From: Anaerobacillus sp.
Lineage (GTDB): Bacteria; Bacillota; Bacilli; Bacillales_H; Anaerobacillaceae
NCBI GenBank assembly: GCA_007120055.1
Contig: SKOL01000158.1
Location: forward strand, 1-17,749
Direction of reading: 5' to 3'
DNA length: 17,749 bases
Shown: positions 1,201 through 17,749 of the stretch, piece after piece
How the letters are laid out: each line of letters opens with the position of its first letter
Numbering within the stretch: the first letter of the stretch is position 1
Program-made: the position numbers and the translations under genes
The notes under the pieces: model-generated
Seen by the model: only the letters and a program-made list of their open reading frames with translations
The model's database searches: none
What the model was told of the DNA's origin: nothing

Positions 1201-1273
1201 GGTGCCTGACCCCCGGTGCGTTAAAGTGCGAAAGTCTTGGTTATTCGACAAAACTCGGGAGGTGACAGGCACC
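1201..1273. repeat. REP-like palindromic repeat, copy 1
   Basis: The ends GGTGCCTG (1201-1208) and CAGGCACC (1266-1273) are perfect inverted repeats, and the inner parts ACCCCCGG and CGGGAGGTG extend the pairing. Bases 1239-1274 are identical over 36 bp to bases 10549-10584 near the lacI-type gene. The left arm and loop differ in sequence and length between the copies. This is the pattern of dispersed REP/MITE-like hairpins seen in Bacillaceae intergenic regions. No associated transposase gene (RAYT type) is in the window. Confidence 0.75.
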
Positions 1274-1397
1274 ACCCCCAAAAGTCCAATTTTTGCAGTA
1301 GGGCTTCCTTTTTTATTTACGCTTGAGATATAAACAGAATTTTTCTAAAATTAGCACAAGTAATAAACTATTAAAACTTAAAAAAAGGGGTGTTTGT

Positions 1398-2417: not shown

Positions 2418-2460
2418 AAAGTGTTATTTGGGAGGGGGGATAACCCTCTCCTAGTTTAAT

Positions 2461-2466
2461 AGGGGG
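2461..2466 (+). promoter_or_regulatory. Ribosome binding site that fixes the TTG start of tctB
   Basis: AGGGGG lies 8 nt upstream of the TTG at 2475. The alternative in-frame GTG at 2466 overlaps this site and has no Shine-Dalgarno sequence of its own. Confidence 0.65.
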
Positions 2467-2474
2467 TGAATGAA

Positions 2475-2906
2475 TTGAAACATAGTGATCGTGTAGTAAG
2501 TATTGCGTTTATGGTAATTGCTTTGATCTTTTTTTTGAATACGATGAAACTACCTGAGAATTCACAAATGTACCCGCGTTTTATGATTGGAATTATGACT
2601 TTTCTTGCTATTTTAATATTTATTAAGAGCTTTTTTAAAGCTCCAGAAAAAGAGTGGAAAGAGTTGTTTGGACACATACAATGGAAACGATTTTTGTTTG
2701 TGTTTGTTATTAGTTTTGTTTATATTGCCTTAATTAATACACTAGGATTCTTTACTACAACTCTACTATATCTCATTATTTCAATGGTTTTCTTAAAGGC
2801 AACGGTAAAAACATTTATCATAAGTATTCCGTCCTTTATGTTAGTTTTATACTTAGTTTTCAGGATATTCTTAAAAGTTCCGTTACCGACTGGAATTTTA
2901 ATTTAA
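2475..2906 (+). CDS. tctB: Tripartite tricarboxylate transporter small membrane subunit (TctB family)
   Basis: Small membrane subunit of the TTT transporter, working with the large subunit TctA in the cytoplasmic membrane. The 143-residue product has four hydrophobic segments (about residues 8-25, 35-52, 72-92 and 97-135, the last probably two close spans), matching the usual size and topology of TctB proteins, which are poorly conserved in sequence. The TTG start at 2475 is preferred over a GTG at 2466. The assignment rests strongly on its position between tctC and tctA, with 14 bp to the latter. Confidence 0.85.
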   Translation: MKHSDRVVSIAFMVIALIFFLNTMKLPENSQMYPRFMIGIMTFLAILIFIKSFFKAPEKEWKELFGHIQWKRFLFVFVISFVYIALINTLGFFTTTLLYLIISMVFLKATVKTFIISIPSFMLVLYLVFRIFLKVPLPTGILI

Positions 2907-2920
2907 AGGGGGGATCATAG

Positions 2921-4402: not shown

Positions 4403-4406
4403 GTTA

Positions 4407-4457
4407 AAAGTCTCGGCAGAACGTTTGCTATTTTCAGAAACGTAAAGCTGGGACTTT
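4407..4457 (+). terminator. Long hairpin after tctA, possible terminator or attenuator
   Basis: AAAGTCTCGGC (4407-4417) pairs with GCTGGGACTTT (4447-4457) over 11 bp including two G-U pairs. Inside, ACGTTT (4421-4426) pairs with AAACGT (4438-4443). The following bases ATTATAAAA give only a poor U tract, so termination may be partial and the phoU-like gene could be reached by readthrough. No clear promoter is visible between the hairpin and the phoU-like gene. Confidence 0.5.
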
Positions 4458-4477
4458 ATTATAAAAGGAGGGGTTTT

Positions 4478-5116
4478 ATGGTTCCAATAATGAAAACTTT
4501 TTCTTATGAAATGGAGAGAATTTACGATCAAATCCATGAGATGGGAAAGTTAACACTTCAACAGATGAATTTAATTCAAGAGAACTTTGAGATGATTACC
4601 TCAAAAAAATCACAAGAAATCTTCTTAATGGATCAAGTAGTTGATAAAAAAGATGAAGAAATTCAAAGGGAGATCTTGAACTTAATGGTTGTTCAAACTC
4701 CACTTCCTAAGGAGTTAGAATCGTTAACAGTGATGCTTAGAATGTCGCGGGAGTTTGAAAGAATAGGAGATCAAATGGTGAATATTGCAGAGTCATTCCA
4801 GCATATTCATTTTGATGCCCCACATTCAACGATCGCTAATGTTTTTGAAATGTTGAACCATACAATTTTTATGCATCAGGAAACATTGAAACTGTTAGGT
4901 GAATATGAAAAGAGTCGAGCTGAAAATATTCGTATTTCAGATGAAAAAGTAGATAGTTTGTTTCATGAATTTCGTGAAGAACTTCCTTCTCTTGTACGTA
5001 AATACGACACTAATATTGATTCGTTAATACAATTTTTTCTTATTAGTCGATATTTGGAGCGGAGTGCTGATCACCTTGTTAATATTTCAAAACGTATCAC
5101 ATTAATAAAAGAATAG
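4478..5116 (+). CDS. PhoU-family protein
   Basis: Cytoplasmic helical-bundle protein of the PhoU family. Family members act in phosphate signalling or regulate phosphate transporters, and bind metals through repeated E/DxxxD motifs. The 212 residues contain the expected two repeats: REFERIGDQMVNIAES (about 91-106) and RYLERSADHLVNISKRI (about 191-207). The start has AAAGGAGGGG upstream; an internal ATG at 4490 is less well placed. The next gene, a Na/Pi cotransporter with its own PhoU-like tail, begins 12 bp after the stop, so this protein probably regulates that transporter rather than a Pst ABC system, which is absent from the window. Confidence 0.88.
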   Translation: MVPIMKTFSYEMERIYDQIHEMGKLTLQQMNLIQENFEMITSKKSQEIFLMDQVVDKKDEEIQREILNLMVVQTPLPKELESLTVMLRMSREFERIGDQMVNIAESFQHIHFDAPHSTIANVFEMLNHTIFMHQETLKLLGEYEKSRAENIRISDEKVDSLFHEFREELPSLVRKYDTNIDSLIQFFLISRYLERSADHLVNISKRITLIKE

Positions 5117-5128
5117 GAGTCTTGTTTT

Positions 5129-6727
5129 ATGGACTGGATACAAATTGTTATTGGTATTTTTGGGGGGCTGGGGATTTTTTTATATGGAATGTATCTAGCC
5201 AGTGAAGGGTTAAAGCGCTCGGCTTCTCAACATTTGAAAGAGTTTCTCAAAAAGGTCACCAAAAACCAAGTGTATGGTTCGGGAGCGGGAGTTGTTCTTG
5301 CTGCTGGGTTGCAATCTTCTAGTGCAGCAACGGTGATGGTCGTTGGCTTTGTCAATTCAGGCTTGATGACGTTAAGACAGTCAATGGGAGTTGTCCTTGG
5401 TTCGGCGATAGGTACTACTTTAACCGTACAACTTATCGCCTTTAAAATTACAGATTATGCCCTTGTGTTTGTTGGGCTAGGTGTTTTATTATTTTTAGTT
5501 TCTTCTAATCAAAAATTCCGCTATGTAGGCAGCATCTTACTTGGATTTGGATTTGTGTTTTTCGGAATGGGTATGATGACAGAGACGATGGGTCCCGTTC
5601 AAGAAAGCCCGCAATTTCTGGAATGGTTTCTTGCTGCCACAGATCAACCTATTTTTACAGTTCTTATCGCTACCCTCTTTACTGCAATCATTCAAAACAG
5701 TGCAGCAACCATCGCCATTGCAATGACTTTAGCAGTTGGCGGAACCTTGACTTTAGAAAGTTCGCTTGCTATAGTTTATGGTGCGAATATTGGGACAGTT
5801 GTGACTGCTTTGATCTCCAGCTTAAATGCTTCAAGAGATTCACAGCGTACGGCAGTTGCCCATGCTTTATTTAAAATTATAGGAGTGCTCTTTTTCCTTC
5901 CTTTTACTATATTATTTGTTCAAGTATTACAAAGCTTAGGAGGAACGGTCGAAAGGCAGATTGCCAATGCACACACCATCTTTAACATTGTCAATCTATT
6001 AATCTTATTGCCATTTTGTAACCTTTTTGCTGATTGGATGACAAAGTTACTTAAAGATAAACCTGAAATGAGTTATACTAAGTATCTAGATAAAAATAGT
6101 TTGGATTTCCCTACCGTCGCAATTCTGAATGTTCAGAAAGAATTACAGCGGATGTCAGCTAAAATAAAACAAGGAATGTTTGATCCTTTGCTTGAAACAT
6201 TAAATCATGATGGTGCGAAAGTAAGGCTATCGATTGTAGAAGAAGAGAAGAAGATTGATCGCCTTTATCGAGGAATATACCATTATTTAAAAAACATTGC
6301 AGAAAAAGATTTGACTGATCAAGAGTCAAGAGATAGTGTACAAATGCTTTATGTAAATAATGAATTAGAAGGGGTTTCTGATTCATTAGAGCAACTCGGC
6401 AATCTTACGATAAAATTTGAAAATGGTGAGTCGGACTTAAGCGAAACGGAAAAGAAAGCCATTGAAGGTTTATATGAAGAAGTATATTTGAGTTTCTGTG
6501 ATTCCGTGGTCGCCTTTGAAAGTCGTGACAAAGATAAAGCGATGGAAGTCATTCATCGTAATCCGAAAATTGTAAGGTTAGAAAAGGAGTTACGTTATCA
6601 ACATTTTTGTTTTGATGGTGTAGAGAGTAGTCGACGAAGTGCGGTCTATACGGATGTGATGAATGGATTATTAAAAATTAATTATCACTGTGTCAATATA
6701 TCACAAACGATGTTAGGAAGGATGTAG
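5129..6727 (+). CDS. Na+/phosphate cotransporter family protein with C-terminal PhoU-like domain
   Basis: Membrane protein of the NptA/YjbB-type Na/Pi cotransporter family, which moves phosphate with sodium; direction and physiological role vary between members. In 532 residues it shows two inverted membrane repeats with the paired family motifs QSSSAATVM (62-70) with GSAIGTT (91-97), and QNSAATIAI (189-197) with GANIGTVVTAL (218-228). A soluble, charged, helical PhoU-like domain occupies about residues 335-532. This is the usual fusion architecture. It is flanked by a separate PhoU-family gene and by a PTS regulator whose start is only 2 bp after the stop, implying translational coupling. 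Confidence 0.92.
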   Translation: MDWIQIVIGIFGGLGIFLYGMYLASEGLKRSASQHLKEFLKKVTKNQVYGSGAGVVLAAGLQSSSAATVMVVGFVNSGLMTLRQSMGVVLGSAIGTTLTVQLIAFKITDYALVFVGLGVLLFLVSSNQKFRYVGSILLGFGFVFFGMGMMTETMGPVQESPQFLEWFLAATDQPIFTVLIATLFTAIIQNSAATIAIAMTLAVGGTLTLESSLAIVYGANIGTVVTALISSLNASRDSQRTAVAHALFKIIGVLFFLPFTILFVQVLQSLGGTVERQIANAHTIFNIVNLLILLPFCNLFADWMTKLLKDKPEMSYTKYLDKNSLDFPTVAILNVQKELQRMSAKIKQGMFDPLLETLNHDGAKVRLSIVEEEKKIDRLYRGIYHYLKNIAEKDLTDQESRDSVQMLYVNNELEGVSDSLEQLGNLTIKFENGESDLSETEKKAIEGLYEEVYLSFCDSVVAFESRDKDKAMEVIHRNPKIVRLEKELRYQHFCFDGVESSRRSAVYTDVMNGLLKINYHCVNISQTMLGRM

Positions 6728-6729
6728 GT

Positions 6730-8889
6730 ATGAAGCAATTTAATTATAGAAGATTATCCATCTTGCAAGATCTTCTAAAACAAAATTTACCTACAACCGT
6801 AGATTTGCTGGCAAAAGAACTAGATTGTTCAGTACGAACGTTAAGGGAAGATATAAAAGCCGTGGATGACTGGCTGAGGGAAAATAAATTCCCATCGCTT
6901 CAGAGAAAAGCGGGGATGGGGATATTGCTTGTAGCTGATGAAAATGTTCGCGCTGAAATTAATAAAGAAATCAGAAAGATTAATATTAGCTATTACGAAT
7001 TTAATAGAAGTGAACGGGTGACTTTTATTTTACTTCACTTGTTAACGAAACAAGGTCCACAGACGGTCAAAAAATTTAGTGATTTATTTTATGTAAGTCG
7101 CGGAACCATATTTGAAGATTTAAAACTCGTGGAAGATTATTTGAAAAACTATCAATTAGTCTTAATGAGGCAAAAAAAAGTCGGGTTATGGGTAGACGGA
7201 GATGAAATTCATTTCCGTCGCTCACTTACCACTTTATGTAAAGACTTAAATCCTGTTTTGATTCAGATGGTAGCAGAAGGACAGTCAGAAGGTCCTTTGT
7301 TTAATAGAAACATAGAATTTTCAAGCTCATTACAGCATGTTGTTGATGATTTACAAGTTAAAGATATTCAAGCCATTATTGATCCTATCTTACAGTTGTT
7401 AGATATTCCGTTGAGTGATGACGGACGAATGGCATTATACTTGCATATTGGGATGGTATTAAATAGACTTGAAACTAAAAATAGTATTGAGTTATTCGAA
7501 AAAGAGTTAGAACAAATATTTACCCAGCGTGAATATCAAATTGCTTTGCTTGTAACGAAGCAATTAGAAGAGCATTTTCATATTAACATTCCAGATCACG
7601 AGATTGCCTATATTACCCTTTATTTAATTGGAAATCAAAATGCACCAGTTCTGCCTGATCAACCATTTATGTTTGAAGATACAGAACTATATCAGCAAAT
7701 TTTAAAAATGACTTTAGTTATGGAGCGAGTACTTCATACGAAGTATAATAAAAAAGACCAATTAATCAAGGGGCTTCTTCTCCATATGAGACCTGCGATT
7801 TATCGGGCGCGTTACGGATTGCATGTCGAAAACCCTCTTGTACAGGAATTAAAACAACAGTTTAAAGAAGTCTACGAAGCTGTTCAAACAGCGGTCTCTA
7901 CGATAGAAGAGGCTTATAAAATTTCATTTTCTGAAGAAGAAATTGCTTATATTACCATGCATTATGGCAGCGCACTATCGAATAGTGAAATAAACGATCA
8001 GCAAAAATTAAAGATTTTAATTATTTGTAGTAGCGGAATTGGGACCGCAAATTTACTAAAGATGCAGATCAATAAGTTATTTTCTAATATCGAGATCGTA
8101 CAGACCATCTCTTATCAAATGTTTAATGAAAGGAATGACTGGGAAGCTAATTTAATTGTTAGTACAATCAAAGTTAAATCTGCTTCTATACCGGTTTTAA
8201 CTGTAAGTCCACTTCTTCCTAAAGAGGATATTAAAAAGTTATCCTTTTATGCGCAACCAAAAAAAGAACTGAACGTTACATCGGAACAAATTTATGAAGT
8301 CATTTGGCCGATTATTAATGAACATAGTGATGTTCGAGATCCTAAACAGCTAACAGATCAGTTGATTATACGGTTAAAAGAGGTATTTGAGGAAGAAAAA
8401 ACGTATTCGCCAGTATCCATGGGATCTCTTGATGACGTTTTAAATTTAAGCAACATTCAATTAAATGTAAAGGTAAAAGATTGGAAAGACGCGATTTGCG
8501 TAGGAACCAAACCTCTTGAAAAAGAAGGGAATGTTCCTCCTAGATATAAAGATGAAATCATCACGATCATTCAGGAACGGGGCCCGTATATGGCAGTTGC
8601 TCCTGGAATTATGTTAGCTCATGGATCTGCAAATGATGAGGTGAAAAAAGTGAGTCTTAGTTTTACTAGATTAAATCCGCCAATCAAATTTGGGCATGAA
8701 AGTAATGACCCCATTTCATTTCTGTTTGTATTTGCTTCTCCGAACCAAACTAGCCATGTACCTGCCTTACAACAATTACTTGAAAAATTATTAGATGATA
8801 AAAGTAGACAAGCATTGGAAGTAGCTAAAGAACCTTGGGATGTCATAAAAATTTTTATTAAGCAAGTGGAAGAGGAAGTTTATCTATGA
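6730..8889 (+). CDS. PRD-containing PTS transcriptional regulator with EIIB-like and EIIA domains (BglG/MtlR type)
   Basis: Large DNA-binding activator whose activity is expected to be set by PTS phosphorylation. Domains in its 719 residues: DeoR-like HTH (5-55; LAKELDCSVRTLREDI), a second HTH (95-150), PRD1 (195-305) with His239, PRD2 (320-420) with His352 and His411, an EIIB-like domain with Cys433 in IICSSGIGTANLL, and a C-terminal EIIA domain of the mannitol/ascorbate class with probable phosphoryl histidine His631 in APGIMLAHG. The position in PRD1 usually holding a second histidine seems to be Tyr298 (AYITLYL). It overlaps the EIIB gene by 4 bp, and no stand-alone EIIA gene is present, so its EIIA domain may also phosphorylate EIIB. 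Annotation as an antiterminator would be misleading: DNA-binding HTH domains are present and no RNA-binding CAT domain is seen. Confidence 0.9.
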   Translation: MKQFNYRRLSILQDLLKQNLPTTVDLLAKELDCSVRTLREDIKAVDDWLRENKFPSLQRKAGMGILLVADENVRAEINKEIRKINISYYEFNRSERVTFILLHLLTKQGPQTVKKFSDLFYVSRGTIFEDLKLVEDYLKNYQLVLMRQKKVGLWVDGDEIHFRRSLTTLCKDLNPVLIQMVAEGQSEGPLFNRNIEFSSSLQHVVDDLQVKDIQAIIDPILQLLDIPLSDDGRMALYLHIGMVLNRLETKNSIELFEKELEQIFTQREYQIALLVTKQLEEHFHINIPDHEIAYITLYLIGNQNAPVLPDQPFMFEDTELYQQILKMTLVMERVLHTKYNKKDQLIKGLLLHMRPAIYRARYGLHVENPLVQELKQQFKEVYEAVQTAVSTIEEAYKISFSEEEIAYITMHYGSALSNSEINDQQKLKILIICSSGIGTANLLKMQINKLFSNIEIVQTISYQMFNERNDWEANLIVSTIKVKSASIPVLTVSPLLPKEDIKKLSFYAQPKKELNVTSEQIYEVIWPIINEHSDVRDPKQLTDQLIIRLKEVFEEEKTYSPVSMGSLDDVLNLSNIQLNVKVKDWKDAICVGTKPLEKEGNVPPRYKDEIITIIQERGPYMAVAPGIMLAHGSANDEVKKVSLSFTRLNPPIKFGHESNDPISFLFVFASPNQTSHVPALQQLLEKLLDDKSRQALEVAKEPWDVIKIFIKQVEEEVYL

Positions 8890-9179
8890 AAACGATTACT
8901 ATCGCAGTTGTTTGTCATCAAGGATTGGGAACAAGTTTATGGATTAAAGTCCAAGTAGAAAAGATCATATTAAAGTATAGGATTCCAGCCAATGTGATGC
9001 AAGTAGATATCGGTGGATTAATAGGGGTTAATCCGGATATTGCAGTAGGGGTTGGTTATATGGAGGAACAATTACAAATACAAGCAAAAACGATAGTAGT
9101 AGTTAATAATATTCTTCAAACTGAAGAAATTGAAAATCAATTACTTGCGAATTGTTTTGTGAAACCTTTTATAGAATAG
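8886..9179 (+). CDS. PTS EIIB component, ascorbate (UlaB/SgaB)-like
   Basis: Small cytoplasmic phosphocarrier of 97 residues that passes phosphate from an EIIA domain to the sugar bound by EIIC. The phosphorylation site is Cys10 in the loop VVCHQGLGTSLWIK, equivalent to the CGNGQGSS loop of UlaB-type proteins; length is normal. The ATG overlaps the end of the regulator gene (ATGA), and the EIIC gene starts 9 bp after its stop. The substrate need not be ascorbate, because the genes for ascorbate-6-phosphate breakdown (UlaD/E/F/G types) are not in the window. Confidence 0.85.
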   Translation: MKTITIAVVCHQGLGTSLWIKVQVEKIILKYRIPANVMQVDIGGLIGVNPDIAVGVGYMEEQLQIQAKTIVVVNNILQTEEIENQLLANCFVKPFIE

Positions 9180-9188
9180 AGGACAACT

Positions 9189-10439
9189 ATGTTATCACTA
9201 TTAATAAGTGAAACCGCATTTATTATAGGGCTTGTAGCTTTTCTAGGATTAATTCTCCAACGAAAACCTATTAATTTTGTCATTGAAGGAACGATTAAGG
9301 CGGTTATTGGGTATGTCATTTTACTATTTGGGGCTTTTTTAGCCACTCAACAGCTGAGTCAACTAGCTGTATTACTAGAAAGAGCTTTTAATGTTCAAGG
9401 TATTATGCCAAATAATGAAATGATCGTCGGAATTTCGCAATGGTTTTTTGGTAAGACGATAGGCTATATTATGCTTGTAGGAATGATATTTCACTTGCTC
9501 ATTGCTAGATTTACTAGATTCAAATATATATTTTTAACGGGCCATCATATTTTGTATATGGCTTCACTCATTGCGGTGATTATGGCAGGGTCAGGCCTTC
9601 CGTTTTATTTACAGATTATCATTGGAAGTGTCGTATTAGCCTGTTCAATGACCTTTTTTCCTGCCATCTGTCAACCGATGATGCGACAGATCATCCCCAA
9701 TCAAAATGTTGCGATCGGCCACTTTGGTTCCGTAGGATATGTGGTCTCAGGATTTTTGGGTAAAGTGGTGGGAGGTTCCCATAAGAAGCCAGAAATTAAT
9801 GCAAACCAGTCGACTAACCTAGGGTTATTAAATAATCCTAATGTTATGATCATGCTATTTATGTTGACTCTTTTTCTATTTGTAGGCATTATCGGAGGCA
9901 AACAGGCCTTCTTTGAAGTATCGGGACAGGGAAATATTATTTTTAATGCGTTTATGCAGGCGTTTCAATTTACAGCAGCGATTTATATTATCATCATTGG
10001 TGTAAGGATGATGTTAACAGAGGTATTAACGGCTTTCCAGGGGATTGCCGATAAACTAGTTCCTAAAGCGATCCCTGCCTTAGATTGCCCGGTCATCTTT
10101 CCATACGCACCTATCGGAGTTGTCATTGGTTTTGCTTCTAGTTTAGCAGGAGGCTTTGCTGGTATTGCCATTTTAATTTATTTTAATATGCAAATTGTAA
10201 TACCGGCGATGATCGCTCACTTTTTTTCTGGAAGTACAGCAGGGGTTTTCGGTTTTGTCATGGGTGGTTACCGTGGGGCCATCGTAGGAGCCTTTACACA
10301 CGGCTTGATCATCACTTTCCTTCCTTTGTTAATTCTCCCAGTTATGTATCAACTAGGTTATACACAGACCACATTTAGTGACACTGACTTTGGTGTAGTT
10401 GGCCTGCTCTTATACTATTTGTTAGAAATACTGACTTAA
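9189..10439 (+). CDS. PTS EIIC component, UlaA/SgaT family
   Basis: Integral membrane permease of a PTS system in the ascorbate/UlaA family; it transports and, with EIIB, phosphorylates its substrate. In 416 residues it carries about 10-11 hydrophobic segments and family motifs RFTRFKYIFLTGHHILYMA (about 107-125) and PKAIPALDCPVIFPYAPIGVVIGF (about 292-315). It is slightly shorter than E. coli UlaA (about 465). AGAGGA precedes the ATG by 5 nt. It is the last gene of the run from 4478. The downstream gap to the convergent lacI-type gene contains a small palindrome and a REP-like hairpin instead of a classic terminator. Substrate unknown. Confidence 0.88.
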   Translation: MLSLLISETAFIIGLVAFLGLILQRKPINFVIEGTIKAVIGYVILLFGAFLATQQLSQLAVLLERAFNVQGIMPNNEMIVGISQWFFGKTIGYIMLVGMIFHLLIARFTRFKYIFLTGHHILYMASLIAVIMAGSGLPFYLQIIIGSVVLACSMTFFPAICQPMMRQIIPNQNVAIGHFGSVGYVVSGFLGKVVGGSHKKPEINANQSTNLGLLNNPNVMIMLFMLTLFLFVGIIGGKQAFFEVSGQGNIIFNAFMQAFQFTAAIYIIIIGVRMMLTEVLTAFQGIADKLVPKAIPALDCPVIFPYAPIGVVIGFASSLAGGFAGIAILIYFNMQIVIPAMIAHFFSGSTAGVFGFVMGGYRGAIVGAFTHGLIITFLPLLILPVMYQLGYTQTTFSDTDFGVVGLLLYYLLEILT

Positions 10440-10442
10440 ATC

Positions 10443-10455
10443 CGTCACTGTGACG
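10443..10455. repeat. Short palindrome CGTCACTGTGACG after the EIIC gene
   Basis: Perfect 6-bp arms around a single T, starting 4 bp after the EIIC stop codon. The spacing is too tight for an RNA hairpin, so it is a DNA palindrome of unknown role. A smaller repeat TTCAC-N5-GTGAA follows at 10485-10499. Confidence 0.35.
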
Positions 10456-10526
10456 CCCCGAAATATCTTGTTTCACAGGAGTGTTTCACGGATTGTGAAT
10501 ATAAAATGGATTTACTACTTAATATA

Positions 10527-10586
10527 ACTGGTGCCAAGCCCCCCTACCGGTTATTCGACAAAACTCGGGAGGTGACAGGCACCAGT
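10527..10586. repeat. REP-like palindromic repeat, copy 2
   Basis: ACTGGTGCC (10527-10535) and GGCACCAGT (10578-10586) are perfect 9-bp inverted repeats. Inside, CCCCCC pairs with GGGAGG. Bases 10549-10584 are identical to 1239-1274 (36 bp). The element ends 3 bp before the stop codon of the minus-strand lacI-type gene and lies between two convergent genes, so the long GC-rich hairpin could act as a bidirectional transcription stop or RNA end protector. The last codons of the lacI-type gene contain another ACTGGTGC (10599-10606). Confidence 0.75.
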
Positions 10587-10589
10587 CCC

Positions 10590-11621
10590 CTATGGCTTAC
10601 TGGTGCTATTTCCGATAATAAATTCGGCGTGTTTAAGGATGGAGTTAGGAATTGTTTCGTTGTCGTTAATACGTTTTATGAGCATGTCAACTAAAGCTCT
10701 ACCTTGCCATTCATAATCTTCGTGGATGGTGGTTAAAATGGGTCGGTTGTTTCTAAACGTTTCCATATGTCCAAAAGAAATTAAAGATACATCTTCTGGA
10801 ACTGTATATCCTTCATCGAGTAAACAGTTTAAAGCTGAAATCGCAGTGATTTCATTAGAAATTAAAAGGCCAGTAGGATGTTCCTCTTTGTATAAGTTTT
10901 TAATTAAATTATAGCTTTCTTCTTTATATCCCGGAGACTTGAGAATATTTTTTTCATCAACAGAAAAACCATATTCTTTTAATGCTTGTTCAAAACCTTT
11001 TATTCTTTCTATATTATGGGACAATAATTTTCCATTAATATCTCCAACAATTATTTTTATGTTTTCATGACCTAAATCTAGTAAATGCTTTGTTGCCGTA
11101 TAACTGCTAGTGATATGATCAAAAGAAACATAATTAATTTCATTTTCTTCGGAGTATTTGGTATTGAAGACATAAGGAATGTTATCTTCGTCTAGTTTAT
11201 TGCTTAGGCTATCATTCAGTGTAGCTCCTAACAAAATAAAACCATCGGCTGTATTTTTTTTAATAACATCAATATACGATTCATAGTTAATTCCTGCTGG
11301 ATTAATGATTAAAATATGGTACCCATAACTTTGTGCGCGCTCTGTAATCGATTTCAATAAGAAGGGATAAAATGGATTTAAAATAACTTCACTAAATTCT
11401 TGCTCTGTAACGACAAGACCGATGATGTTATTTTTACCAGATTTAAGTGTCCTTGCTGCTTTATTAGGTACATAACCTAATATGTTAATCGCTTCTAATA
11501 CCTTTCTTTTGGTTGCTTCGCTCACTTCTGAAGAATCGTTTAAAACTCTAGAAACGGTTGATTTAGTGACGTTTGCCTTTTTAGCAACATCATAAATAGT
11601 TACTTTTTTTATGGTAATCAC
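10590..11621 (-). CDS. LacI-family transcriptional regulator
   Basis: Cytoplasmic one-component regulator; binding of a sugar-like effector normally releases it from palindromic operators with a central CG. The 343 residues show an N-terminal HTH (about 8-30; TIYDVAKKANVTKSTVSRVLN), the hinge helix YVPNKAARTLKSG (50-62) and a periplasmic-binding-protein-like effector domain (about 65-338). The start is GTG at 11621, with AAAGGA only 3 nt away; this short spacing makes the exact start uncertain, but no better ATG/TTG precedes the HTH. It is divergent from the rpiB-TRAP genes and is the obvious candidate to bind the four GGTAYCGTTCCCG sites found upstream of rpiB and of the ADP-ribosylglycohydrolase gene. 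No such site lies at its own promoter. Effector unknown. Confidence 0.92.
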   Translation of the reverse strand: MITIKKVTIYDVAKKANVTKSTVSRVLNDSSEVSEATKRKVLEAINILGYVPNKAARTLKSGKNNIIGLVVTEQEFSEVILNPFYPFLLKSITERAQSYGYHILIINPAGINYESYIDVIKKNTADGFILLGATLNDSLSNKLDEDNIPYVFNTKYSEENEINYVSFDHITSSYTATKHLLDLGHENIKIIVGDINGKLLSHNIERIKGFEQALKEYGFSVDEKNILKSPGYKEESYNLIKNLYKEEHPTGLLISNEITAISALNCLLDEGYTVPEDVSLISFGHMETFRNNRPILTTIHEDYEWQGRALVDMLIKRINDNETIPNSILKHAEFIIGNSTSKP

Positions 11622-11743
11622 CTATCCTTTAAACTATATTTTAAGAGAAAATGGACTGTTTAAATAGCCCACAAAGATATAAAGTTCTAATATTTTTTAA
11701 GGGAACTAAAAAGGAGCCAATAGAGACTTTTAGTATTACTTTT

Positions 11744-11772
11744 ATTATATATTAGAAATTTTAACCAAACAA
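11744..11772 (-). promoter_or_regulatory. Probable promoter of the lacI-type gene
   Basis: On the minus strand TTGTTT (11767-11772) and a perfect TATAAT (11744-11749) are separated by 17 bp. The transcript would begin near 11738 and carry a leader of about 115 nt. The promoter lies back to back with the rpiB promoter, about 30 bp away. Confidence 0.6.
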
Positions 11773-11803
11773 TTTTTGTCGAACATTTTATGAAACTTGG
11801 ATA

Positions 11804-11832
11804 TTGACATTAAAGTTTTATTGTATTACTAT
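11804..11832 (+). promoter_or_regulatory. Promoter of the rpiB-TRAP genes
   Basis: A perfect -35 TTGACA (11804-11809), a 17-bp spacer and TACTAT (11827-11832) as -10. Transcription should start near 11839, 8 bp before the first operator, leaving a leader of about 165 nt that contains two operators and a cre site. Confidence 0.75.
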
Positions 11833-11846
11833 TTAGTTACAACAGC

Positions 11847-11859
11847 GGTACCGTTCCCG
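11847..11859 (+). promoter_or_regulatory. LacI-type operator O1 upstream of rpiB
   Basis: GGTACCGTTCCCG, one of four near-identical sites in the window. The first 12 bases have the imperfect symmetry GGNANCGNTNCC with a central CG, typical of LacI-family operators. It starts 20 bp after the start of the -10 box, so a bound repressor would block initiation or early elongation. Confidence 0.75.
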
Positions 11860-11911
11860 GTTGGTTTAATATAACTATAACACAAAAGTTATTTTTTTTA
11901 TAGTTAAAAAT

Positions 11912-11924
11912 GGTATCGTTCCCG
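11912..11924 (+). promoter_or_regulatory. LacI-type operator O2 upstream of rpiB
   Basis: GGTATCGTTCCCG, 65 bp after O1 (start to start). It may act as a roadblock or help form a repression loop with O1. Between the two lies an AT-rich inverted repeat AACTATA (11873-11879) / TATAGTT (11899-11905). Confidence 0.75.
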
Positions 11925-11954
11925 ACAAAAAATCAACATTTTTTTATCGGTGGT

Positions 11955-11968
11955 TGTAAGCGGTTTCT
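11955..11968 (+). promoter_or_regulatory. cre site for CcpA catabolite repression
   Basis: TGTAAGCGGTTTCT matches the Bacillus cre consensus TGWAARCGYTWNCW at 13 of 14 positions. It lies in the transcribed leader between O2 and the rpiB ribosome binding site, where CcpA acts as a roadblock repressor. It starts 43 bp after O2 starts, exactly as in the 16.6-kb copy of this arrangement. Confidence 0.65.
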
Positions 11969-11990
11969 AATGTTTGATTAATTAAAGTGA

Positions 11991-11996
11991 AGGAGG
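11991..11996 (+). promoter_or_regulatory. Ribosome binding site that fixes the TTG start of rpiB
   Basis: AGGAGG lies 8 nt upstream of the TTG at 12005. The alternative in-frame GTG at 11987 is upstream of this site and would be unserved. Confidence 0.8.
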
Positions 11997-12004
11997 ATTT
12001 TAAA

Positions 12005-12472
12005 TTGATTGTATCCGTTGGATGTGACCACGCTGGATTTCCGTTAAAAGCGAAAGTAGTAGAGTATATTAAAGCTCTCGGCATTGAAGTCATTGATCAT
12101 GGAAGCTATACACCTGAGCCCGTTGATTTTCCTGACATCGCTCGAACCGTGTGTGATTCGGTAAGAGACGGCCAGGCTGATCGTGGAATTATGGTTTGTG
12201 GTACTGGAGTTGGAGCGAGCATTGCAGCAAATAAGATCCCAAAAATAAGGGCGGCTGTTTGCCACGATATTCATTCTGCTTATCAGTGTGTAGAGCATGA
12301 TGATGTAAATGTGATGTGTATTGGAGCAAAAATTGTAGGAGAATGGGTGGCCAAAGATTTAATTGAAGCCTTTTTAAAAGCGGAATTTAGTACTGAAGTT
12401 CACTTTAGACGAAGGGTTGAAAAGTTACATCAGTTAGAAATAGAAGCTGCAAAAGAGTTAAAAGTGGATTGA
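12005..12472 (+). CDS. rpiB: RpiB/LacAB-family sugar-phosphate isomerase
   Basis: Cytoplasmic isomerase that interconverts an aldose phosphate and a ketose phosphate; the type enzyme converts ribose 5-phosphate to ribulose 5-phosphate. The TTG start at 12005 gives 155 residues, normal for RpiB. Visible features: VGCDHAGFPLK at 5-15, with the phosphate/substrate Asp-His pair at 8-9; Cys65 in VCGTGVGASIAANK, the expected catalytic base; His98 in VEHDDVNVMCIGAKIVG, matching the RpiB HNDAN region; and RRRVEKL near the C-terminus for phosphate binding. Some RpiB-like enzymes act on allose, galactose or four-carbon sugar phosphates, so the pentose assignment is probable but not proven. It is first in a LacI/CcpA-controlled unit with a TRAP transporter. 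Confidence 0.88.
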   Translation: MIVSVGCDHAGFPLKAKVVEYIKALGIEVIDHGSYTPEPVDFPDIARTVCDSVRDGQADRGIMVCGTGVGASIAANKIPKIRAAVCHDIHSAYQCVEHDDVNVMCIGAKIVGEWVAKDLIEAFLKAEFSTEVHFRRRVEKLHQLEIEAAKELKVD

Positions 12473-12804
12473 GTGGCGCTAGTTATTGGGACATAAGAGT
12501 CTACTTTAGTTATTGGTGAAAAGATTTAATTAGCAACTTTAAAAAAAGTTTCATAAATGTTGTTTCATGTAATGATTTTGACGATTTCTTAATGAATTTG
12601 AAATTATTTTTGATGAATGTTACAAAGCTAATAATTACATTACGTAAATGAGTATTCAATGCCGGTGTAAAATTCCAGAATTGTTATATTGAATAGGTAT
12701 AAAAATAGTGATTAAATATTAAACAGTATTTAATATATTTTTTTAAAAGCTGTTTTAATATTATAGAAGTTTTGTAATCTAAAAAAAGAGAGGGGATTTG
12801 TTAC
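12473..12804 (+). other. AT-rich gap between rpiB and the TRAP receptor gene
   Basis: No gene is seen. A small AU-only hairpin AACTTT-N4-AAAGTT (12535-12550) and a direct repeat TAGTTATTGG (12480-12489, 12507-12516) are present. TTGAAA (12598-12603) with TACAAA (12621-12626) at 17-bp spacing is a possible weak promoter for the TRAP genes. There is no GGTAYCGTTCCCG operator and no strong terminator, so readthrough from rpiB is likely. Confidence 0.4.
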
Positions 12805-13893
12805 ATGAAGAAGTTTTTCTTAACAGTTTTGCTAGTTTTATTGTCAGTACTTATTGTTGTAGGTTGTTCATCACCGACTGGAAATGAGAATGAGAATGAG
12901 GAATCCCAAGCAGGAGAAGCTCCAGAAGGAAATTCTGAAAACCAAAACTCTGCAGAGAAAGAGAAGAAGACGATTAACATTTCTGTTTTAGGTTCGCCTC
13001 AAAATACGACTACACAAGTTCTTTATACATTTAAAGAAGAACTTGAGAGTTTGGCTGATGGTCAAATCGAAGTAGTCATTCACCATTCTGGATCACTTTA
13101 CGGTCAAGATGCCGATGAGCGCGCTGTATTGAGAGGAAACTTAGAAATGACATATGTTGACGCGGCGTCCGTTGCAGCACACCTTCCTGAAGCAAGTATG
13201 TACAATGCTGCATATATGTGGAAGAATTACGAGCATATGAATGCTGCTTTATCAGGAGAGATTGGCCAAGAATTTTTTGAAAAAGTTGCAAGTGAAGTAG
13301 GATACAGACCGTTAGCTGCTTTTTACCATGGTGACAGACAGTTAAATTATAGAGATGTTGGACGTGAAATAAGAACTCCAGAGGATGTTCAAGGTTTAGT
13401 GCTTAGAATGCCAAATAACCGTGCCATGATTTTCATTGGTGAAGCAATGGGTGCTTCGGTAACTCCACTAGCTTTTGGTGAGGTGTATACAGGATTAAGT
13501 ACAGGAACAATTGATGCTCAGGATAACTCAATGGAAGTGACTATTGATCATAAATTCTATGAAGTTACAGATTATGTATCATTAACAAATCACGTTGTTG
13601 ATAGTCTTTTCCCGATCATTAATGAAGACTTCTTCCAATCTTTAGGGTCTGAATTACAAGAAATGGTTTATAAAGCAATTGAAATAACGAAAGAAGAAAA
13701 CGATAACATCATGCTTTCGAAGCGAGAAGATGCCATTGAAGTTCTAGAAAGTAAAGGTGTGACAGTCATTAGCGACGTAGACATAGAAGCGTTTATGAGT
13801 GAAATTCAAGAGAAGTATTTAAATGATGATATTTCTGCAGAGTGGAATATGGATGTATTTAATCAAATTCAAGAATTGGCAGATCAATTCTAA
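12805..13893 (+). CDS. TRAP transporter substrate-binding lipoprotein (DctP family)
   Basis: Extracytoplasmic receptor of a TRAP transporter that delivers its ligand to the DctQ/DctM permease. The 362 residues begin with a lipoprotein signal (lipobox IVVGC, Cys21), followed by an Asn/Glu-rich tether to about residue 53. The DctP fold follows, with LRMPNN around Arg201, the conserved arginine that in known members binds the ligand carboxylate, and AFGEVYTGLSTGTIDAQDNS at about 223-242. The start has GAGAGGGGA about 10 nt upstream. The conserved arginine favours an acidic ligand, but the compound cannot be named. The permease genes follow only after a 324-bp gap containing hairpins and a MITE-like element. 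Confidence 0.92.
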   Translation: MKKFFLTVLLVLLSVLIVVGCSSPTGNENENEESQAGEAPEGNSENQNSAEKEKKTINISVLGSPQNTTTQVLYTFKEELESLADGQIEVVIHHSGSLYGQDADERAVLRGNLEMTYVDAASVAAHLPEASMYNAAYMWKNYEHMNAALSGEIGQEFFEKVASEVGYRPLAAFYHGDRQLNYRDVGREIRTPEDVQGLVLRMPNNRAMIFIGEAMGASVTPLAFGEVYTGLSTGTIDAQDNSMEVTIDHKFYEVTDYVSLTNHVVDSLFPIINEDFFQSLGSELQEMVYKAIEITKEENDNIMLSKREDAIEVLESKGVTVISDVDIEAFMSEIQEKYLNDDISAEWNMDVFNQIQELADQF

Positions 13894-13946
13894 TAGATTA
13901 AAATTTAAACTTTGACCATATATCAAGCCTTTTTTTAAAATTATCG

Positions 13947-13998
13947 CCCCTAGATTTTACAACTTTTTAGCCCAAGTTTTGGGATGTACTTCTAGGGG
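13947..13998 (+). repeat. Nested hairpin after the TRAP receptor gene
   Basis: CCCCTAGA (13947-13954) and TCTAGGGG (13991-13998) form perfect 8-bp arms enclosing a smaller hairpin CCCAA-GTT-TTGGG (13971-13983). It has no U tract directly after it. Such structures after receptor genes often protect the upstream mRNA or reduce readthrough into permease genes. Its right arm overlaps the left end of the MITE-like element. Confidence 0.5.
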
Positions 13999-14150
13999 AC
14001 TGTCCTAAAATCAAGTGTCAACAAATACCAATTAAAGTTCACTTTCACCAACATCAATGTAAATAAGTTGCTTAGAAATGCTCCATTAAAGAAAGTTCAC
14101 TTTCTCGTAGCAACCTTGTTTACAGGGTAGATACTTATGTGACAGCCCCC
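13995..14150. mobile_element. Possible MITE or insertion-sequence remnant
   Basis: The outer ends match as imperfect terminal inverted repeats: GGGGACTGTC (13995-14004) against GGGGGCTGTC read inward from 14150. Such GGG-CTGTC ends are common in Bacillus insertion sequences. The 156-bp interior has no open frame, two direct copies of AAAGTTCACTTTC (14034-14046, 14092-14104), and an inner inverted repeat between TGTAAATAAGTTGCT (14056-14070) and AGCAACCTTGTTTACA (14109-14124). No target duplication is evident, so the boundaries are uncertain. Confidence 0.4.
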
Positions 14151-14202
14151 GTTAGCAATAATATAGAGAGTAACACTCCAAACTTGGGTTAATGTTAGAA
14201 AT

Positions 14203-14208
14203 GAGGTG
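14203..14208 (+). promoter_or_regulatory. Ribosome binding site deciding the dctQ start
   Basis: GAGGTG lies 9 nt before the ATG at 14218. The in-frame GTG at 14206 overlaps this site and is therefore unlikely to be the start. Confidence 0.65.
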
Positions 14209-14217
14209 TATTCTTTC

Positions 14218-14808
14218 ATGAACATAGTTAAGAAGGTATGGAACTACGTGCTTTGGTTTTTTGAAGTAATAATGCCTGCTGTATCACTGATCGGAATATT
14301 TTTAATATTCAACGTTCAAATTTTTTACCGATATGTTTTAGAAAGCCCTTTAATATGGGCGTTTGAGGCAAGTTTAACCCTTTTTCTTTGGCTAATTATG
14401 TTTGGAGCCGTTTATGCTTGGAGAAAAAAAGAGCATGTTCAGTTTAGTATTTTCTATGATTTAGCTCCAAGTAAAGTCCAACTTTTTATAAGGCTAATAA
14501 GTAATTCCGTTGTTATTATTTTCTTGAGTATCGTTGTGTATCCTGTGAGCCAGCAATTAAATTTCTTAAATAGAATTTCTTCGCCACAGCTAGATATTCC
14601 ACTCAGTATAGTCTTTTTACCAATGTTGATTTGCTTTATATTAATTATCTTTCATAGTTTTGTAGATATACTTCATGATTTAAGAAAGCTAAAGTCAGGC
14701 GATGGTGATTATACAGAAACTATTTATGAAGATCAATATGTCGAACTCGAACCTCAAGACGAAGAGACAATTACAATTTTTAATGAGCAAGGGGCGAGTA
14801 CAAAATGA
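14218..14808 (+). CDS. TRAP transporter small permease subunit (DctQ family)
   Basis: Small integral membrane subunit of the TRAP transporter, required with DctM. The product from the ATG at 14218 has 196 residues with four hydrophobic spans (about 15-35, 48-68, 85-108 and 130-155), the standard DctQ topology, including the FEASLTLFLWLIMFGAVYAWRKKEH region typical of the family. A charged C-terminal tail of about 40 residues rich in Glu/Asp is somewhat long. The stop overlaps the DctM start (ATGA), indicating translational coupling. Confidence 0.9.
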   Translation: MNIVKKVWNYVLWFFEVIMPAVSLIGIFLIFNVQIFYRYVLESPLIWAFEASLTLFLWLIMFGAVYAWRKKEHVQFSIFYDLAPSKVQLFIRLISNSVVIIFLSIVVYPVSQQLNFLNRISSPQLDIPLSIVFLPMLICFILIIFHSFVDILHDLRKLKSGDGDYTETIYEDQYVELEPQDEETITIFNEQGASTK

Positions 14809-16088
14809 GTATAGAGCTTTTATTACCGTTACTATTGTTAATATTATCATTTCTCATACGTATACCTATTGCTGCTGGGATGATCATAGCGAGTATTCTG
14901 TATTTTTTACTTACTAATAAAGACTTAGGGTTAGTAGTAGAAGTCATGGGAGAGAGCCTTTACACCCAGTATGTCGTAATTGCGATCCCTTTGTTTGTTT
15001 TTGCAGCAAACTTGATGAATACGGGAACGGTAAGTGATCGTGTCTTTTCTTTTGCTAATGCATTAGTTGGACGTTTTCGAGGAGGTCTAGGGCAGGTTAA
15101 TGTCCTGTCATCATTAGTCTTCTCAGGAATGAGTGGTTCATCTTACGCAGATGCTTCGGGTCTGGGAAAACTGGCAATATCTGCGATGAAAAAGAAAGGA
15201 TATGATCCCGGTTTTTCATGCGCGGTCACCGCAACATCAGCGACGGTTGGCCCGATTTTTCCACCAAGTATCATCATGGTCATGTATGCGATGTTGTCAG
15301 GGGCATCTGTAGGTGCGCTTTTCATAGCAGGTATCGTCCCGGCAATACTTATGTGTTTGAGTTTGATGATCTACATTGCGTATATCTCTCATAAGAGAAA
15401 CTACCCATATGGAGCAAAGTATGCAATGCGTGATTTTCTTGTTTACACTTTTAAAGCGTTACCAGCTCTGTTTATGCCGGTGATTTTACTAGGTGGTATT
15501 TACTCAGGAATTATGACGCCAACAGAAGCAGCAGGTGTAGCTGCATTTTATACATTGATCATCTCTGTAGTTGTATATCGTTCTTTAGGAATAAAAGAAT
15601 TTTGGCAGGTGGCTGTAAATAGCGCAAGAATGGTAGGTTCTTTAGGCTTTTTATTAGGGGGGGCCATTTTATTATCGTATGTAGTTGCATACGAAAGGGT
15701 TGCTCAAATTTTAGCTGATTCGGTCTTAGGATATATAGATAACCCTATTTTACTATTAATATTAATTAATATCGTTTTTTTACTATTAGGAATGGTGTTA
15801 GATGTCGCTGTTTTATTGCTCATCTTTACTCCCATTGTGTTGCCTTTAGTCGCAGCGTTAGGGATTGATTTAGTACATTTTGGTATTGTTATCATTATTA
15901 ATATGGGAATTGGAACGATCACACCTCCATTTGGAATGCTATTATTTATTGTCTCGGGTGTATCTAAAACTAAGCTATATGCAATCATCAAAGAAATTGT
16001 TCCTTTCGTAGGTATTATGATTGTAATATTACTTTTAATCACACTTTTCCCGGATATCGTTCTTTTCTTACCTAACATGATTAATTAA
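14805..16088 (+). CDS. TRAP transporter large permease subunit (DctM family)
   Basis: Large membrane subunit forming the Na+-driven transport path of the TRAP system. The 427 residues show about 11-12 hydrophobic segments and clear family signatures: FSGMSGSSYADASGLGKLAI near 106-125, VTATSATVGPIFPPSIIMVMY near 140-160, GGIYSGIMTPTEAAGVAAFY near 227-246 and GIGTITPPFGMLLFIVSGV near 367-385. Length is normal. It overlaps dctQ by 4 bp. The transcript probably continues into the structured region at 16208-16328. The gene is complete, as are its two partners, so the TRAP system appears functional. Confidence 0.95.
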   Translation: MSIELLLPLLLLILSFLIRIPIAAGMIIASILYFLLTNKDLGLVVEVMGESLYTQYVVIAIPLFVFAANLMNTGTVSDRVFSFANALVGRFRGGLGQVNVLSSLVFSGMSGSSYADASGLGKLAISAMKKKGYDPGFSCAVTATSATVGPIFPPSIIMVMYAMLSGASVGALFIAGIVPAILMCLSLMIYIAYISHKRNYPYGAKYAMRDFLVYTFKALPALFMPVILLGGIYSGIMTPTEAAGVAAFYTLIISVVVYRSLGIKEFWQVAVNSARMVGSLGFLLGGAILLSYVVAYERVAQILADSVLGYIDNPILLLILINIVFLLLGMVLDVAVLLLIFTPIVLPLVAALGIDLVHFGIVIIINMGIGTITPPFGMLLFIVSGVSKTKLYAIIKEIVPFVGIMIVILLLITLFPDIVLFLPNMIN

Positions 16089-16448
16089 GTTGCTTTTGGT
16101 CAACGTAGAGTACTAGATTGTCATTTTCCTAAAAGATAGATAGTAGTCGACGTTAAAATAGTTGTTTTCAGCTACAGCTGATAGGTGGTTATCGCGCAAT
16201 ACTTCTATGAGAGGATTCTCTCAATTCTGTATCTAAAAGTCGGTCGGCTACTTTCGCTACACTGTTATCTCTGCCGTTCAAGAGGCTTGCTCAAGTAAAC
16301 CAACCGACGATATATTTTTTATACAGAAAATAGTTAGAAGCTGCTTTTAATTGAGATAGTATTGATTAGAATTCGTGGCTTCTAGTTGTAGATCGATCCA
16401 TGTGGGATGAGTTTTTATAAAGTTTTTTCTAATAAAAGGAAAAAGTGT
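16089..16448 (+). other. Gene-free stretch after dctM
   Basis: No protein gene or recognisable RNA gene is seen. It contains a DNA palindrome TCAGCT-AC-AGCTGA (16168-16181), a hairpin TGAGAG-GATT-CTCTCA (16208-16223) and the larger structured element at 16225-16328. The rest, up to the promoter at 16449, is AT-rich and featureless to me. Confidence 0.45.
16225..16328 (+). terminator. Structured element, possible multibranch terminator of the TRAP transcript
   Basis: Outer arms TTCTGTAT (16225-16232) and ATACAGAA (16321-16328) are perfect. Inner arms GTCGGTCGG (16239-16247) and CCAACCGAC (16300-16308) pair with one mismatch. Smaller pairings inside are GCC/GGC around 16273-16285 and CTTG/CAAG at 16286-16295. 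A T6 run follows the inner right arm at 16315-16320, so the GC-rich stem could stop transcription from dctM. The loop is large for a simple terminator, and it might instead be a small RNA or a palindromic repeat. Confidence 0.4.
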
Positions 16449-16477
16449 TTGACAAAGGGATGTTAATAAATTAAACT
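16449..16477 (+). promoter_or_regulatory. Promoter of the ADP-ribosylglycohydrolase-family gene
   Basis: A perfect -35 TTGACA (16449-16454), a 17-bp spacer and TAAACT (16472-16477) as -10. The predicted start is near 16484, 10 bp before operator O3. Layout matches the rpiB promoter. Confidence 0.7.
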
Positions 16478-16493
16478 TTAGATACAACGAATT

Positions 16494-16506
16494 GGTATCG
16501 TTCCCG
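16494..16506 (+). promoter_or_regulatory. LacI-type operator O3
   Basis: GGTATCGTTCCCG followed by G, as at O1. It starts 22 bp after the start of the -10 box (20 bp at rpiB), so the same repressor would block this promoter. Confidence 0.75.
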
Positions 16507-16559
16507 GCAATGGATTTACAAATTGAATTGAGTTTTTGGTTATTTTTTTATATAAAATC

Positions 16560-16572
16560 GGTATCGTTCCCG
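16560..16572 (+). promoter_or_regulatory. LacI-type operator O4
   Basis: GGTATCGTTCCCG followed by A, as at O2, and 66 bp after O3 (65 bp between O1 and O2). Confidence 0.75.
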
Positions 16573-16602
16573 AAAAAGTCGGACCTGATTTTGTCTAAAA
16601 GA

Positions 16603-16616
16603 TGATAGCGCTTTTG
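16603..16616 (+). promoter_or_regulatory. cre-like site
   Basis: TGATAGCGCTTTTG matches the cre consensus around the central CG but departs from it at the fourth base and at the 3' end. Alone it would be weak. Its start is exactly 43 bp after O4 starts, the same distance as the good cre site after O2, which supports the call. Confidence 0.45.
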
Positions 16617-16726
16617 GGAAAAGGATTTTTTATTACTTTTACGAAAGATTTTGTACTGAATTCTAAGTGGTAGATTAAAGGTTTTAGCCTTTAATATATA
16701 AAAATGATCATAGGATGGTGTTAAAT

Positions 16727-17749
16727 ATGAGTAGAGAAGTTAGCTTAAGAGACAAATTTTTAGGTTGTATATCAGGTGTGCACATCGGATCTGCAATGGG
16801 TGCAGCTGTTGAAAGTTGGAGCTATCAAAAAATAGAAGAAAGATATGGAACATTACAAGAATTACTTCCATATGAGCATTATGAAAATGGTTGGGTTAGA
16901 GAAGCAGGAACAACTGAGGATGGAGTAGAAAGACAAAAGTTAATGATCACAGCGATGATCGAGAAAGAAGATCGAGTAACCGCAGAGGATGTCAAAAAGA
17001 TTTGGGTACGTGATATTAAACCAGAATCGATTGGAATGATCTCTGAACCATTTGAAGCAACGTTACTTGCGATGGCGAAAAGTGATATTCCGGGTGTCGA
17101 TATTGGTAAATATTGTGATTATTCAGGATTGAATAGTTTTGCACGTGCTTGTCATCCAATTGGTCTAATAAATGCTGGAGATCCTAAGGGAGCAATGGAC
17201 GATGTTTTTGAAGTAGGGCAACTCTACCAATCTAGTAATAGTAGAGGTTTAAAGTGGGCATCTGTTACTGCGGTTGCAATAGCATCTGCTACGAAACCTG
17301 GAGCAACCGTTGATAGTGTCATCGGAGATATTTACGATTTATGTGATCAAGATCGTGTTGTAAAAGAAATTGACAGAGAGTTAAAACATACAGCTCATTG
17401 TAAAGATTTTAGAGAACTAAGAACAACTTTTGACAGTGTTTATGCGGGTGAAGGAATGGACTATGCGTACGCATGGGCAAACGAAGTTGTGACAAAAGGT
17501 ATTTGTATTTTTAAAATGACGAATGGTGACCTAAGAGATGCAATGGTATCAGCGGTTAACATGGGAAGAGATGTTGATTGTATTACAGCTGTAGCCTCAG
17601 GTATTTCCGGTGCACTTACAGGTACCTCATCCATTCCTGAAGAATGGATCAAACAAACAGATTACGCAACAAAAGTTAATCATGTGACAAATAACCAAAG
17701 AACACTTCAAGAAAGTGCAGATGGATTATACTTTGCTTATCAATCACGA
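16727..17749 (+). CDS. ADP-ribosylglycohydrolase-family protein, C-terminus cut by window edge
   Basis: Cytosolic enzyme of the ADP-ribosylglycohydrolase (DraG/ARH) superfamily; characterised members use Mg2+ to hydrolyse N- or O-glycosidic bonds to ribose. The frame is open for 341 residues with no signal peptide and no stop before the edge. Landmarks: LGCISGVHIGSAMGAAVES (12-30), the family's N-terminal glycine motif; TTED at 62-65, in place of the usual TDDT metal motif; and GRDVDCITAVASGISGALTG at 280-299, in place of GGDTDT. Acidic residues are kept in both motifs. The ATG follows AGGATGGTG by 6 nt. With its LacI operators and nearby RpiB and TRAP genes, it is likelier to act in catabolism of a small glycoside than in protein de-ADP-ribosylation; this is inference. 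Confidence 0.8.
   Translation, partial: MSREVSLRDKFLGCISGVHIGSAMGAAVESWSYQKIEERYGTLQELLPYEHYENGWVREAGTTEDGVERQKLMITAMIEKEDRVTAEDVKKIWVRDIKPESIGMISEPFEATLLAMAKSDIPGVDIGKYCDYSGLNSFARACHPIGLINAGDPKGAMDDVFEVGQLYQSSNSRGLKWASVTAVAIASATKPGATVDSVIGDIYDLCDQDRVVKEIDRELKHTAHCKDFRELRTTFDSVYAGEGMDYAYAWANEVVTKGICIFKMTNGDLRDAMVSAVNMGRDVDCITAVASGISGALTGTSSIPEEWIKQTDYATKVNHVTNNQRTLQESADGLYFAYQSR

Follow-up and report, generated by a model that had tools for sequence, protein, structure and literature searches.

A predicted local LacI-family regulon with paired operators at two promoters in an Anaerobacillus contig

Introduction

The sites of LacI-family regulators in RegPrecise lie mostly just upstream of their target genes, and tandem sites precede about 20% of operons, according to the main text of PMC4052901. 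For regulators with a TVSR recognition helix, PMC2978694 connects residues 15 and 16 with bases 5 and 4 of the operator, and R20 with a G at base 6. The present study examines a stretch of Anaerobacillus sp. DNA (assembly GCA_007120055.1, contig SKOL01000158.1, positions 1 to 17,749 of the forward strand), hereafter the window, by which we mean the whole stretch of 17,749 nucleotides. It holds a lacI-family gene divergent from rpiB and, further downstream, a gene of the ADP-ribosylglycohydrolase family, and each of the two latter genes is preceded by a promoter and two copies of a CG-centred site. The divergent LacI-family regulator very probably uses these four sites as operators, which would mark a small local regulon.

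Compared with the described systems, the window shares with the local sugar regulators of PMC4052901 an even palindrome with a central CG, and differs in operator spacing, for which the main text of that paper gives peaks at 13, 22 and 32 bp as against 65 bp here. A word search of the same main text for ADP-ribosyl, rpiB, TRAP, looping and Paenibacillus returned nothing. The regulator also resembles those covered by the code of PMC2978694 in its TVSR helix and in the links between residues and bases. A further LacI-family gene, from Holdemania filiformis (L007), is like the window in combining a KSTVSR helix with a pair of GGTATCGTTCCC and GGTACCGTTCCC sites. It falls outside the ortholog group listed for the window gene and, unlike the latter, has phosphotransferase system (PTS) and sucrose-type genes as neighbours (named by eye); its operators flank the promoter (by eye), whereas those of the window lie downstream of it.

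Promoters and operators in the window

The 13-mer GGTAYCGTTCCCG occurs in four exact copies in the window, at 11847, 11912, 16494 and 16560, each pair just past a TTGACA-17-TANNNT promoter. With up to two mismatches permitted there were six matches versus a shuffle mean of 0.20 (maximum 2), the two inexact ones, with two mismatches each, lying inside dctM. The CG-centred scheme GGNANCGNTNCC is matched at 8 of 8 positions only by the four operators, with a single 7/8 stretch at 346, and the window operator (GGTAYC.GTTCCC) is an imperfect even palindrome about a central CG. A promoter scan of the window by itself was not significant (21 found versus 29.5 expected).

Promoter 1 (TTGACA-17-TACTAT, 11804..11832, on the forward strand like all sites that follow; -35 at 11804, -10 at 11827) and promoter 2 (TTGACA-17-TAAACT, 16449..16477; -35 at 16449, -10 at 16472) both score 10/12. 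Promoter 1 is followed by operator O1 (GGTACCGTTCCCGG, 11847..11860) at about +9 of the predicted start site, by operator O2 (GGTATCGTTCCCGA, 11912..11925) and by a putative cre, or CcpA site (TTGTAAGCGGTTTCT, 11954..11968); at promoter 2 the corresponding parts are O1 (GGTATCGTTCCCGG, 16494..16507) at about +11 of the predicted start site, O2 (again GGTATCGTTCCCGA, 16560..16573) and a weak cre-like site (TGATAGCGCTTTTG, 16603..16616). The distances at promoters 1 and 2, respectively, are 20 and 22 bp from the start of the -10 element to O1, 65 and 66 bp from O1 to O2, and 43 bp in both cases from the start of O2 to the cre site. Both O1 sites end in GG and both O2 sites in GA. An earlier, sequence-only reading of this stretch had described the same parts in the same order at both promoters, and all of its positions and distances proved correct; exact copies of the motif are confined to the four sites, as it had stated, and the LacI-type central-CG symmetry that it noted is present, if imperfect.

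Orthologs of the regulator and their operators

The lacI gene (10590..11621, reverse strand) encodes a protein of 343 aa with the recognition helix TKSTVSR. The product scores above cut-off for the Pfam families LacI and Peripla_BP_3 (PF00356 and PF13377/PF00532), which indicates a LacI helix-turn-helix joined to a periplasmic-binding-protein-like effector domain. All 17 listed matches to named NCBIfam LacI equivalogs and subfamilies (CcpA, RbsR, PurR, CytR and others) fell below cut-off, the best being ccpA with 177.6 against a cut-off of 442. Among the best 120 of 2341 matches, the protein belongs to a discrete ortholog group of 22 relatives at 45-79% identity, after which identity drops to 37%; the sources include Halalkalibacter, Paenibacillus and Gordoniibacillus. 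Orthologs were found in 11 of 374 genomes of the family of genome G004 and in 8 of 373 of its order, three being shared, and the family used for comparison is presumably Paenibacillaceae. The comparison set comprised 19 ortholog genes in 16 genomes and 17 clusters, two clusters (L053 and L054) holding two lacI-ortholog genes close together. No ortholog was found in 398 genomes of the class (E 1e-65), nor in 29 of the family or 397 of the order of G221 (both E 1e-60), a genome picked through an nptA search that matched 1 of the 398; these sets may include no Halalkalibacter, so absence is not implied. In a plasmid tblastn search with lacI all 4517 records were below 60% identity, and the viral contigs contained no lacI relative, with the operator-pair pattern present in three stretches. 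A scan of genome contigs for the paired-operator pattern returned 12 stretches, none from Halalkalibacter, of which L007 (the Holdemania locus) and L011 were inspected.

For the operator footprint we used the 450 bases upstream of each lacI start in 20 regions (the window and 19 relatives). Full 8/8 matches to GGNANCGNTNCC numbered 21, two of them the window's own sites from which the scheme was derived, versus a shuffle mean of 0.11 and a maximum of 2 in 500 shuffles. At a threshold of at least 7/8 there were 42 sites (shuffle mean 2.0, maximum 8). At least one full site was present in 15 of the 20 regions; L030 and L031 had none, each carrying one 7/8 site, GCAACCGTTCCC. GGCAAC.GTTGCC, an operator seen in relatives, is likewise an even palindrome with a central CG, and GGCAACGTTGCC, at 8/8, is the main site in eight of the loci whose regulator has a TPSTVSR helix (L032-L034, L036-L040). 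The closest of the fetched loci (L049, L050 and L051, 54-56% identity) carry GGTAYCGTTCCC, as GGTATCGTTCCC or GGTACCGTTCCC, between lacI and the operon; the 12-mer of O1 at promoter 1 recurs in L050 and L051 and that of O2 in L049. A lacI-proximal operator, 14-54 bases before the lacI start, was found in 15 of the 19 relative loci. An operon-side pair of sites of at least 7/8 was present in 12 of the 20 lacI regions, the window being counted by promoter 1 only, and the O1-O2 spacings in relatives were 67, 68, 92, 97, 98, 99, 99, 100, 108, 108 and 169 bp.

The 12-mer GGTAYCGTTCCC is not enriched genome-wide, and its placement at the lacI locus is the telling part. Across five genomes it has nine exact matches versus eight for the reversed control, so that the motif is not scattered over many unrelated places in the relatives, the outcome that the sequence-only reading had named as counting against it. 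Restricted to the three genomes that carry the closest orthologs, the count of exact matches is eight, five of them at the lacI locus (reversed control, 6). The looser pattern GGYAWCGTTRMC was discarded as a genome-scan probe for being too common, with 11 to 43 matches per genome versus 6 to 24 for the reversed control in 11 genomes, and L055 (genome G911), which matches GGCAACGTTGCC, was rejected as a further locus, having no window-type genes.

Recognition helix and operator base 4

Complete half-sites were counted according to the residue that precedes STVSR in the associated regulator. With K, position 4 of the half-site was G in 15 cases, T in 9, A in one and C in none (25 half-sites, the four window sites included); with P it was C in 31, T in 5, A in one and G in none (37 half-sites); and with T it was C in 2, T in 2 and G in one (5 half-sites). 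As related species are not independent, these counts do not amount to a formal test. On this evidence the residue before STVSR (K or P) is judged to track operator base 4, in line with the code of PMC2978694. A lysine/proline switch with a matching operator change inside one ortholog group would put the LacI recognition code to a natural test.

Associated genes

In the window, rpiB (12005..12472, forward strand) scores above the NCBIfam rpiB cut-off. Its start is probably the TTG at 12005, which stands behind AAGGAGG when read from the sequence, because the listed GTG at 11987 sits at this ribosome-binding site. The ADP-ribosylglycohydrolase-family gene (PF03747 by Pfam; 16727..17749, forward strand) is truncated by the window end. 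Among the relatives, rpiB adjoins lacI in 11 of 19 loci (L032-L034, L036-L040, L049, L050 and L052) and is present in the stretch fetched for 14 of the 17 clusters; for genes of the ADP-ribosylglycohydrolase family the figure is 16 of 17, L035 being the exception, with those of L030 and L031 at only 43% identity. Orthologs of lacI and of the ADP-ribosylglycohydrolase gene (the latter from the best 120 of 1872 matches) form seven pairs on equally long contigs. The operon of L049 runs rpiB, ABC binding protein, two permeases (transporter by Pfam) and ADP-ribosylglycohydrolase gene; L050 has the same order, judged by gene size and tblastn only, and L051 has transporter-size genes and the ADP-ribosylglycohydrolase gene without rpiB. 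AraC-type and nucleoside hydrolase genes (the latter PF01156 in L036) occur in both L036 and L053, and the L036 cluster also has two ADP-ribosylglycohydrolase genes. The comparison shows both the pairing of the regulator with this operator and its association with these genes.

Operator sites precede the first ADP-ribosylglycohydrolase gene by 53 bases in L053/L067 (8/8), 47 in L054/L065 (8/8) and 46 in L066 (7/8), in a scan that took in sites inside called open reading frames. These sites, 46-53 bases before the gene in three clusters, provide a precedent for the second promoter of the window. Matches of 7-8/8 located 107-362 bases before such a gene in L049, L051, L032 and L040 were set aside as chance occurrences inside upstream genes.

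A lysine riboswitch was observed near the cluster in two of seven loci searched (L037:3849-4039 and L040:15131-15320).

Regulatory model and alternative explanations

We consider it highly probable that the LacI-family repressor controls promoters 1 and 2 through the CG-centred operators. A two-promoter LacI regulon had been proposed by the sequence-only reading, and the ortholog footprint, the tracking of operator by helix and the gene association all lend it support. A number of observations weigh against this interpretation. In none of the eight loci L032-L034 and L036-L040 does the first ADP-ribosylglycohydrolase gene have a site of at least 7/8 within 400 bases upstream (0/8), and the fetched comparison loci include no Halalkalibacter, the nearest relatives, so that promoter 2 was compared in other relatives only. 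L035 has no operator site, and its stretch contains neither rpiB nor an ADP-ribosylglycohydrolase gene; no site of at least 7/8 lies upstream of the second lacI copy in either L053 or L054. The window itself is without the lacI-proximal operator of the relatives, and all four of its sites end in CCCG as against CCCA or CCA in the three closest relatives.

Under the proposed mechanism, the repressor would bind the operator at about +9 to +11 and block initiation or promoter escape, and the second operator, some 65 bp downstream, would raise occupancy or serve as a roadblock. Promoter 1 would place rpiB, and perhaps the TRAP transporter genes behind it, under this control, and promoter 2 the ADP-ribosylglycohydrolase-family gene. 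The repressor is presumably released by a sugar or nucleoside-type ligand, with catabolite repression by CcpA as a probable further layer at promoter 1. Since this repressor and near-identical sites recur next to related genes in other bacteria, the circuit is judged real, though it belongs to an ordinary, known type of sugar-use control. Going beyond this, we tentatively suggest, at somewhat less than even confidence, that an undescribed LacI ortholog group controls an undescribed catabolic route and that, within the group, changes in the recognition helix have moved operator base 4 between G/T (with Lys) and C (with Pro). In that route PF03747 enzymes, together with a nucleoside hydrolase in some species, would cleave a ribosyl compound imported by TRAP or ABC transporters, and RpiB would carry the sugar phosphate onward. 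For PF03747 proteins in sugar-uptake clusters, the locus offers predictions of regulator, operator and gene set.

The sequence-only reading attributed the equal layout of the two promoters to selection on spacing, as opposed to recent duplication, on the grounds that the intervening sequences are not alike. Measured segment by segment against dinucleotide shuffles, three inner segments indeed show no significant likeness singly (-35/-10 spacer, p = 0.39; O1-O2, p = 0.18; O2-cre, p = 0.13), but the segment between -10 and O1, which contains TTAGNTACAAC at both promoters, is alike (p = 0.005), as are the four inner segments summed (p = 0.005). Outside the cassette no similarity is seen in the flanking 40 bases, either upstream of -35 or downstream of the cre site. 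The best local alignment also takes in a GTTA-TTTTTTTATA block that stands ahead of both O2 sites, and the shared GG and GA endings of the O1 and O2 sites point in the same direction. This residual similarity, weak and partly AT-rich as it is, possibly preserves traces of an old cassette duplication, which makes the latter as likely an origin of the layout as convergence. The range of 67 to 169 bp between O1 and O2 in relatives argues that 65 or 66 bp is no general requirement, and the earlier claim of selected spacing is left without support in that form. We place the duplication of one promoter cassette at about even odds with selection on exact spacing; equal spacing at two promoters need not imply selection on spacing.

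The paired operators might alternatively loop the DNA through two repressors bound on one helix face. Operon-side pairs in 12 of 20 lacI regions accord with this, and the spacing phase, which at 10.5 bp per turn clusters with R = 0.62 and p = 0.005 over 13 spacings, suggests looping or same-face binding; after collapse to eight rough clades set by eye, however, the phase test gives p = 0.11. The helix that tetramerises Lac repressor lies at its C-terminal end. The alignment to Lac repressor (360 residues) breaks off at residue 331, after which the window protein has seven residues left, so that the Lac-type tetramerisation tail is missing from this 343-aa protein. A Lac-type loop is left without support, and looping between the paired operators, a possibility raised by the sequence-only reading, appears unlikely.

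CcpA, another LacI-family protein, was considered both as an additional regulator and as the main binder of the operators. The cre consensus strings are WTGNAANCGNWNNCW and TGWAANCGNTNWCA. The site at 11954 has no mismatch to WTGNAANCGNWNNCW, and the site at 16603 differs from TGWAANCGNTNWCA by two mismatches on the reverse strand and three on the forward strand; further cre sites with no mismatch lie inside window genes. Cre-like sites of no more than one mismatch occur in six of the 20 lacI regions versus a shuffle mean of 0.54 (maximum 3), and in two of the six regions (L036 and L054) the site coincides with the position of the lacI-proximal operator. In L049, L050 and L051 the cre-like site stands in the stretch from -10 to O1 and not downstream of O2, so the 43-bp distance between O2 and cre is not general; L052 too has its cre-like site before O1. 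Control by CcpA, which had been proposed for both promoters, is plausible at promoter 1, with its good cre, and weakly indicated at promoter 2. As the main binder of the four operators, CcpA could account for the CG-centred scheme common to operator and cre, and some relatives' operators match cre with one or two mismatches. The operators nevertheless co-vary with the recognition helix of the lacI ortholog and lie beside lacI, and the four window sites depart from TGWAANCGNTNWCA in carrying GG at half-site positions 6 and 5; we regard this explanation as very improbable.

Neighbouring genes and further observations

The TRAP transporter genes occupy 12805..16088 on the forward strand (dctP 12805-13893, dctQ 14206-14808 and dctM 14805-16088; Pfam DctP, DctQ and DctM) and are perhaps read from promoter 1. 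The upstream part of the window holds a PRD-type PTS regulator with EIIB and EIIC genes, and tct-type, phoU-like and nptA-like genes named by eye. No Rfam families were found in the window.

A terminator-like hairpin lies upstream of rpiB, between the promoter and the first operator, in L032, L033, L034, L037 and L040. It consists of GGCTTACA followed at a distance by TGTAAG or GTGAG and then a T run, and the variants of the 3' arm keep pairing via G-U; it is a possible attenuator. The insert is missing in L036 and L038, and the window leaders contain no terminator-like match.

In L011, from Neobacillus niacini, positions 600-830 comprise a tandem repeat of approximately 52 bases with GGGAACGATACC, beside a replicative-helicase-like gene (by eye) and unrelated to lacI. 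Finally, the long gap between dctP and dctQ in the window (13894-14205) holds short repeated AAAGTTCACTTTC words, seen by eye.

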